Part shown: positions 28,427-55,614 of the stretch, piece after piece | Layout: every line of letters begins with the position of its first letter | How positions within the stretch are numbered: the stretch's first letter is position 1 | Assembly: GCF_014192375.1 (NCBI RefSeq) | Contig: NZ_JACHXV010000009.1 | Coordinates: forward strand, 1-64,000 | DNA: 64,000 bases | Origin: Endobacter medicaginis | GTDB lineage: Bacteria > Pseudomonadota > Alphaproteobacteria > Acetobacterales > Acetobacteraceae | Direction of reading: 5' to 3' | Notes under the pieces: model-generated | Database searches by the model: none | The model's input: the letters and a program-made list of their open reading frames with translations, nothing else | What the model was told of the DNA's origin: nothing | Position numbers and translations under genes: made by a program

Positions 28427-29041
28427 ATGACCACCCGACCGACCGGCCGCCTCGCGCGCGGCACAGCCGCCGCCCTGCTCGTGCTGCTCGCCGCCGGATC
28501 GTCCGGCGGCTGTGCCGCGCGCGGGGCGGCCGGGGTGACCAACGTGATCCCGATCCCGCTGCGCGAGGGCATCGCGACGGTGGCGCATTTCGCCCCTGAC
28601 GGGCGCCGGGCGGAGGTGGTGGTGGCCCGCATGCCAGGTGCCGGCGCGCCGTCGCTGATGGCGCTGCTGCCGCGCGAGGGCAGTGGCGCGCGTGATGACG
28701 GCTGGGACGTGGTCACCATTGCCGAGCCGACCGGAGGCATCTCAGGCGTGTTCAATCCCGGCCGGGGAGCGGCGGTCTATGCGCGGGCCAAGATCCGCGG
28801 CGTGCCGGCCACCCTGCTGCTGGCCGCCCAGCCGGCGGCCGACGACCCGCAGCCCTGGGGCCAGCCGCGCCGGATGGACGTGCTGGTCTACCAGCTCGAG
28901 ACCGGCGCGCGGTCGGCCTCCTTCACCCTGCTCGACCGTCGCACCAGCACCGCCCGCTACTGCGACGCCGCCGATGCGCTGGCGGCGCAGTTCTCCATCG
29001 CCCTGCCAGGCGGCGCCGGGCTGTGCGGCCGCGCTGGCTGA
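28427..29041 (+). CDS. Exported protein of unknown function
   Basis: This 204-residue protein has a hydrophobic export signal (AAALLVLLAAGSSGGCAA). The Cys could be lipidated, although S-G-G-C is an imperfect lipobox. The mature part is beta-rich with ATVAHFAPDGRRAEVVVARM and GISGVFNPGRGAAVYARA. No family was recognised. It is the third gene of the 26813-29041 run; its ribosome site is weak. Confidence 0.6.
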   Translation: MTTRPTGRLARGTAAALLVLLAAGSSGGCAARGAAGVTNVIPIPLREGIATVAHFAPDGRRAEVVVARMPGAGAPSLMALLPREGSGARDDGWDVVTIAEPTGGISGVFNPGRGAAVYARAKIRGVPATLLLAAQPAADDPQPWGQPRRMDVLVYQLETGARSASFTLLDRRTSTARYCDAADALAAQFSIALPGGAGLCGRAG

Positions 29042-54610: not shown

Positions 54611-55012
54611 ATGCCGGTGATTTCGCCCCTGCTGTCGATCGTGAGCTGGTCGGTCGTGCTCTTCTTCATCCACCTGATCGTCCAGGACCTGACGATGACG
54701 CGCGAGCGGGGGCTGGAGTGGAATGTCGGCGCGCGTGACGGCACCGCCCGCGCGCTGAGCGATGTCGCAGCACGCGCCGACCGCGCGTTCGCCAATTTCC
54801 GCGAGACCTATGTGGTGTTCATCGGTCTCGCCGTGCTGTGCCTGATCACCGCGCCGCTGAGCGACGTGGCGATCATCGGCGGCTGGGTGTGGTTCGTCGC
54901 CCGCATCGCCTACCTGCCGCTGTACCTGAGCGGGGTGAAGCGCATTCGCACGTTGGCCTGGCTGGTCTCGATCGGCGGTCTGGTGGCGATGCTGATCGCC
55001 GGTTTCGTATAG
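54611..55012 (+). CDS. MAPEG-family membrane protein
   Basis: This 133-residue protein has four membrane helices and the MAPEG layout: an N-terminal helix, GLEWNVGARDG (loop with the glutathione-binding region), ADRAFANFRETYVVFIGLAV (the conserved N-x-x-E-T-Y-like core) and WVWFVARIAYLPLYLSG. It is probably a glutathione-transferase-type inner-membrane protein. AGGTCC lies before the ATG. It ends just before the large inverted repeat at 55034. Confidence 0.85.
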   Translation: MPVISPLLSIVSWSVVLFFIHLIVQDLTMTRERGLEWNVGARDGTARALSDVAARADRAFANFRETYVVFIGLAVLCLITAPLSDVAIIGGWVWFVARIAYLPLYLSGVKRIRTLAWLVSIGGLVAMLIAGFV

Positions 55013-55033
55013 GCTCGGAGCGTGTCTGGAAAA

Positions 55034-55150
55034 TCCGGCACCGGCCCACACCCCCACCCGGCCACCCATTTCAGCATACTGTCGTGGGTGGCCGGGTGGG
55101 GGTGTGGGCCGGTGCCGGACCCGGGAATGCGCCGTACGGCGCATTCCCGG
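55034..55150. repeat. Large double inverted repeat (35-bp and 14-bp stems)
   Basis: Arms 55034-55068 and 55085-55119 are perfect 35-base reverse complements around a 16-base loop; the sequence alternates C-rich and G-rich tracts (CCGGCCCACACCCCCACC). Directly after it, CCGGGAATGCGCCG-TA-CGGCGCATTCCCGG (55121-55150) forms a perfect 14-bp stem. The structure fills the gap between the convergent MAPEG and cyanase genes. It may act as a bidirectional terminator, but its length and perfection suggest a mobile palindromic repeat. Confidence 0.85.
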
Positions 55151-55158
55151 ACAAGCGC

Positions 55159-55614
55159 TCAGAACACCTTGTAGGGCAGGAACTTCCCCGACAGCAGGAT
55201 CCTCACCCGGTCGCCCTTGGGATCAGGCTCGCGCTGCAGGTCCATCGAGAAGTCGATCGCACTCATGATGCCGTCACCGAACTCCTCGGCGATCAGCTCC
55301 TTGATCGCCGGACCATAGACACTGAGCATTTCGTAGAACCGGTACAGCAGCGGATCGTCGGGCGGCCGTCCGTTGAAGGTCCCCTTCATCGGCGGACGGG
55401 TCAGGAAGGGCTTTGCCGCCGGGTCGAGCTGGAGGATGCCGCACAGCGCATCCGCCTGTTCCGCGCTGAACGTCATCTGCCCCAGACAGGCGGCGGTGAC
55501 CCATTCCTTGCTCAGGCCCAGACGACTGGCGACCTCCGCCCAGCTCAGCCCGGCATGGATCCGGGCGAGCACGATCGCCTCGGTGACCTCGTCGCGATTT
55601 CGAAACATCCCCAT
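55159..55614 (-). CDS. cynS: Cyanate hydratase (cyanase)
   Basis: This 151-residue cyanase converts cyanate plus bicarbonate to carbamate and CO2. It has the N-terminal helical domain (LSWAEVASRLGLSKEWVTAA) and the catalytic C-terminal domain with R92, E95 and S118 (in YRFYEMLSVYGPAIKELI and DGIMSAIDFSM), matching the E. coli triad. It is near full length (E. coli 156). The ATG at 55614 follows GGAGAAATGG. No cynT/cynX partners are adjacent; it stands alone downstream of priA. Confidence 0.95.
   Translation of the reverse strand: MGMFRNRDEVTEAIVLARIHAGLSWAEVASRLGLSKEWVTAACLGQMTFSAEQADALCGILQLDPAAKPFLTRPPMKGTFNGRPPDDPLLYRFYEMLSVYGPAIKELIAEEFGDGIMSAIDFSMDLQREPDPKGDRVRILLSGKFLPYKVF

Follow-up and report, generated by a model that had tools for sequence, protein, structure and literature searches.

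The perfect inverted repeat between a MAPEG-family gene and the cyanate hydratase gene cynS of Endobacter medicaginis is very probably the core of a 141-bp non-autonomous DNA transposon (MITE), which has terminal inverted repeats (TIRs) of the IS5/IS1031 type and would be moved by an IS5-family transposase acting in trans. In the window, by which we mean the whole stretch of 64,000 nucleotides analysed, the TIRs GAGCGTGTCTGGAAAA and GCGCTTGTCCGGGAA enclose two hairpins, a conserved long one of G+C and a short one, and the feature is thus larger than the first-pass annotation had described. The element carries no gene, is exactly 141 bp long and lies between the two convergent genes (Table 1), with flanking trinucleotides that are alike at two of three bases. 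Short, geneless and bounded by TIRs, it has the properties of a MITE, to which come, at the level of the family, multiple dispersed copies, a target duplication and an empty site of another copy. Among 29 other cynS loci inspected, none had a MAPEG gene next to cynS.

Table 1. Features of the 141-bp element and its neighbours (positions in the window)
Feature	Position	Strand	Remark
MAPEG-family gene	54611..55012	+	neighbour, convergent
Left target duplication TCG	55015..55017	.	family rule is a TNA 3-bp duplication; 2/3 bases match the right side
141-bp MITE	55018..55158	+	bounded by the TIR pair; 141 bp is the modal length in the family; composite fold
Left terminal inverted repeat GAGCGTGTCTGGAAAA	55018..55033	+	
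Conserved hairpin core	55034..55119	+	35-bp arms, loop TTTCAGCATACTGTCG
Conserved terminal loop	55069..55084	+	family consensus AGSATACTGWCG
Second, short hairpin GGGAATGCGCCGTACGGCGCATTCCC	55121..55150	+	
Right terminal inverted repeat GCGCTTGTCCGGGAA	55138..55158	-	overlaps foot of short hairpin
Right target duplication TCA	55159..55161	.	TGA stop codon of cynS (- strand)
Cyanate hydratase gene cynS	55159..55614	-	neighbour, convergent

The first-pass annotation had reported a perfect 35-bp inverted repeat followed by a perfect 14-bp palindrome. The former was borne out, with 35-bp arms (55034–55068 and 55085–55119) that are 100% complementary around a 16-nt loop, and it was the top-ranked inverted repeat across the 64-kb window; the latter was present directly beside the hairpin core, with a length of 15+15 bp and no spacer instead of 14 bp. 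The fold of the hairpin as RNA had a z-score of -15.8 and that of the 141-nt element as DNA a z-score of -14.3, and in both cases 0 of 200 shuffled sequences folded as well. As single-stranded DNA, the entire element was computed to form a three-way junction that the TIRs close. No Rfam match above the gathering score was obtained in the window. A four-tract G-quadruplex motif is kept in the G-rich arm of the window copy (55085–55119) and in 50 of 56 aligned copies. The second-ranked inverted repeat of the window was found at 28443–28533, with 30-bp arms that are 97% complementary and a loop of 31 nt.

We then turned to the ends of related elements, as in Neoroseomonas, where TIRs GAGACCGTTTGAAAA were found together with a short hairpin AATGCGCC..GGCGCATT adjoining the core. 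Identical 3-bp flanks bordered 18 of the 33 elements of this TIR design, where about 0.5 were expected and shifted-offset controls gave 0–1, and 16 of these 18 duplications were TNA. The commonest element length was 141 bp, found exactly in 15 of the 33. An empty site was identified in N. terrae for the N. lacus copy L087, the copy that the full/empty comparison covers in place of the window copy, with flanks that align at 84% and 73%; the junction reads CTGTC-TTA-(element)-TTA-CGACGCGG in N. lacus versus CTGTC-CAA-TCGCGG in N. terrae.

The first-pass annotation had held that a single copy, conserved at orthologous sites, would speak against its reading of a mobile, MITE- or REP-like unit; six core loci were found in the 3.63-Mb genome itself. 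The core was also detected in 5 of 40 relatives (own genome counted apart), some of which carry up to dozens of copies, and the matches listed in named genomes include Neoroseomonas, Roseomonas, Belnapia, Roseospira, Tistlia, Sphingomonas and unclassified alphaproteobacterial MAGs. Using a covariance model built on 56 copies for the family and class scans, we found that 17 of 150 genomes from the family of the window, which we take to be the Acetobacteraceae, have the core; for the class the count was 30 of 385 genomes, from about 20 alphaproteobacterial families. With these copies in the genome and its relatives, the patchy distribution, the target duplications and the empty site, the mobile reading gained support, and a family of mobile palindromes over about 20 alphaproteobacterial families is now identified, the mover of which can be tested. 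Sphingomonad plasmids carry the core as well and are a possible route between families, and phage records searched for the core gave no match. The plasmid copies L286, L287 and L288 are on a conjugative plasmid of Novosphingobium and on mobilizable plasmids of Sphingopyxis and Sphingomonas, respectively. In the high-copy genome G096, a recent burst of copies is suggested because many of them have identical scores. A literature search for palindromic repeats of the carrier genera found no paper, and the hairpin-bearing MITE family is apparently undescribed and unannotated so far. Lichenicola is a genus of the Acetobacteraceae. From the genome of one of its species, Lichenicola cladoniae, 1,369 REPs are counted by RepRanger (PMC12306157), in passages that give no sequence for them.

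Across the family, the core is about 84 nt long with 34-bp arms around the loop consensus, and between lineages the similarity stops at the arm end. Strong covariation was found, at 12 pairs with both sides changed, with 107 doubly changed cells observed versus 32 in shuffles and 9–18 in slid controls. On the loop-sense strand, G-U pairs exceeded C-A pairs by 46:23, which hints at a constraint at the RNA level, although the copies are not independent of each other. The perfection of the arms may be kept by changes on one side being matched on the other, either through selection for the fold or through hairpin-templated correction. For such a hairpin the first-pass annotation had offered recent insertion or maintenance by selection, and there is evidence for both. 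The family also shows that a transposon can maintain a very long perfect hairpin as one of its parts. Nested palindromes were found in G096 (L190 and L192, contigs C114 and C208), where the core lies symmetrically within the arms of an older core that lacks its loop and inner arms, a pattern that would result if tips of hairpins were cut off and then refilled from another copy. In the own genome, L014 (G000:C1:46097-46132 and upstream) is a core with a symmetric tip deletion (..GCACCCCGGGGTGGGGGTGC..), as expected from hairpin-tip cleavage.

The mover suggested by the TIRs and the TNA duplication is a DDE transposase of the IS5 family. Elements of the IS1031 subgroup target TNA with a 3-bp duplication, are about 860 bp long and have two overlapping ORFs (PMC12016507). 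The own genome contains, in the region of C2:281589, an IS5-family element of 864 bp with the TIR GAGCGCCTTTCAAAA and the flanks TAA/TAA, which matches NF033580 and encodes DUF4096 and DDE_Tnp_1 in two overlapping frames; only 10 of 15 TIR positions are shared between this element and the window MITE. In N. alba, the MITE ends GAGCCCGCATTGAGAA and GTGCCCGTTTGAGAA are near-identical to the TIR GAGCCCGYTTGAGAA of an 887-bp IS5-family element. MITE-like TIRs were found in only 2 of the 30 IS5-type loci looked at, and 1.17 Mb of other loci contained one such widely spaced TIR pair, one end of which belonged to a MITE. From the ends and duplications observed, we consider the mover likely to be an IS5 (IS1031-type) transposase acting in trans and not a REP-associated tyrosine transposase (RAYT). 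Such an IS5-type enzyme, with its gene at another place in the genome, would recognise the TIRs of the MITE, cut out or copy the element and insert it into TNA targets, duplicating 3 bp. The elements resemble IS5-family (IS1031 subgroup) MITEs in their TIRs starting with GAG, their TNA 3-bp duplications, the absence of genes, their multiple copies and the presence, in some carriers, of a roughly 860-bp IS whose TIRs are similar. On the other hand, a conserved 84-nt hairpin and a second hairpin make up their interior in place of a remnant of the IS, the former hairpin is kept across families, and the same interior also occurs with other ends.

Four copies of 130–133 bp have GGTAGTGTCTCAGTTTG-type ends around the core, and three of them (L112, L149 and L042) are flanked by perfect 8-bp duplications, the only 8/8 matches among 811 candidate pairs tested, where the next best pair matched at 6. 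Carriers of this 8-bp type include G096 and clean1792. As an 8-bp duplication fits the IS1595 family (PMC8101967), this second end type on the core (GGTAGTG...) might be related to that family, which we take as a lead only. A third end type, GAGCATGAT, was found in 14 candidate copies, with TA on both sides in 7, and is the weakest set. No PF13340 protein was found in the high-copy G096, so IS5 is not the mover everywhere, in keeping with a different mover in that genome. It is conceivable, if somewhat short of an even chance in our judgement, that one hairpin core has been joined to three or more types of transposon end (GAGACCGTTTGAAAA with TNA, GGTAGTGTCTCAGTTTG with 8-bp duplications and TA-flanked GAGCATGAT), and that this single non-coding module uses unrelated transposases to spread and serves, at any landing site, as a mobile gene-end structure with a loop recognised by a host factor. 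The same non-coding interior with different transposon ends bears on how MITEs originate, how they persist beyond their parent IS and how they turn into signals at gene ends. Further lineage-specific outer frames, hairpins with GCGGATGA and CAACGGTCAT, were observed in Roseospira and Rhodospira (L063, L076, L081 and L115).

The different frames around one core, together with the nested palindromes in G096, would also agree with the 84-nt core being itself the mobile unit that jumps into other palindromes. We regard this as very unlikely, given that the duplications and the empty site are at the outer TIRs and not at the core, and that a search of 7 genomes for the frame pattern lacking the core (exact match only) gave 0 hits. 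Even less credible is a REP/BIME element moved by a RAYT, the mover that the first-pass annotation had suggested and that is largely refuted: although the copies are palindromic, extragenic, dispersed, sometimes grouped and close to gene 3' ends, as in REP/BIME/REPIN systems, Y1_Tnp (PF01797) was absent in 13 of the 18 carriers searched, that is, in the own genome (100% complete) and 12 others, including the high-copy G096, G011 and G092. Moreover, 3-bp or 8-bp duplications next to TIRs mark the action of a DDE transposase, and the stem is much longer than that of REPs. REPs of the GTAG and CGTC superfamilies are defined as 20–40 bp palindromes with a terminal GTAG or CGTC (PMC3733652); membership was rejected for the consensus of the core, which is about 84 nt long and has neither tag at its end.

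A role at gene ends was weighed from the placement of the copies, analysed with a rough gene finder of our own (85% coding), in which 82 of 84 classifiable copies were intergenic. Divergent gaps were avoided (10% of copies versus 27%, p=5e-4) and convergent gaps enriched (32% versus 19%, p=0.012), and in codirectional gaps the copies lay at a median of 20 bp past the stop codon and 76 bp ahead of the next start. This placement, the covariation of the core and the G-U excess on the loop strand would all suit a bidirectional terminator or mRNA 3'-end element primarily kept for the host, the dispersal of which was old and incidental. We consider this reading unlikely, as the orientation of the element in codirectional gaps was unbiased (26:22), its presence in the family is patchy (17 of 150 genomes), a terminator scan found none at the hairpin, and the TNA target bias alone predicts landing at stop codons. 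An intrinsic terminator was rejected since the sequence past the hairpin, CCCGGGAATG, has no U-tract; such terminators share the stable hairpin behind stop codons with the element, which differs in being mobile and having terminal repeats. For a MITE moved by an IS5-family transposase, TNA covers the stop codons TGA and TAA, so that insertions right behind genes would arise easily and do no harm. The hairpins of such insertions may form a barrier in both directions where the gene ends, as a terminator or a stabiliser of mRNA ends. The observed placement agrees with stop codons serving as TNA targets and with the removal of promoter insertions, and it also leaves room for a putative terminator or mRNA-end role.
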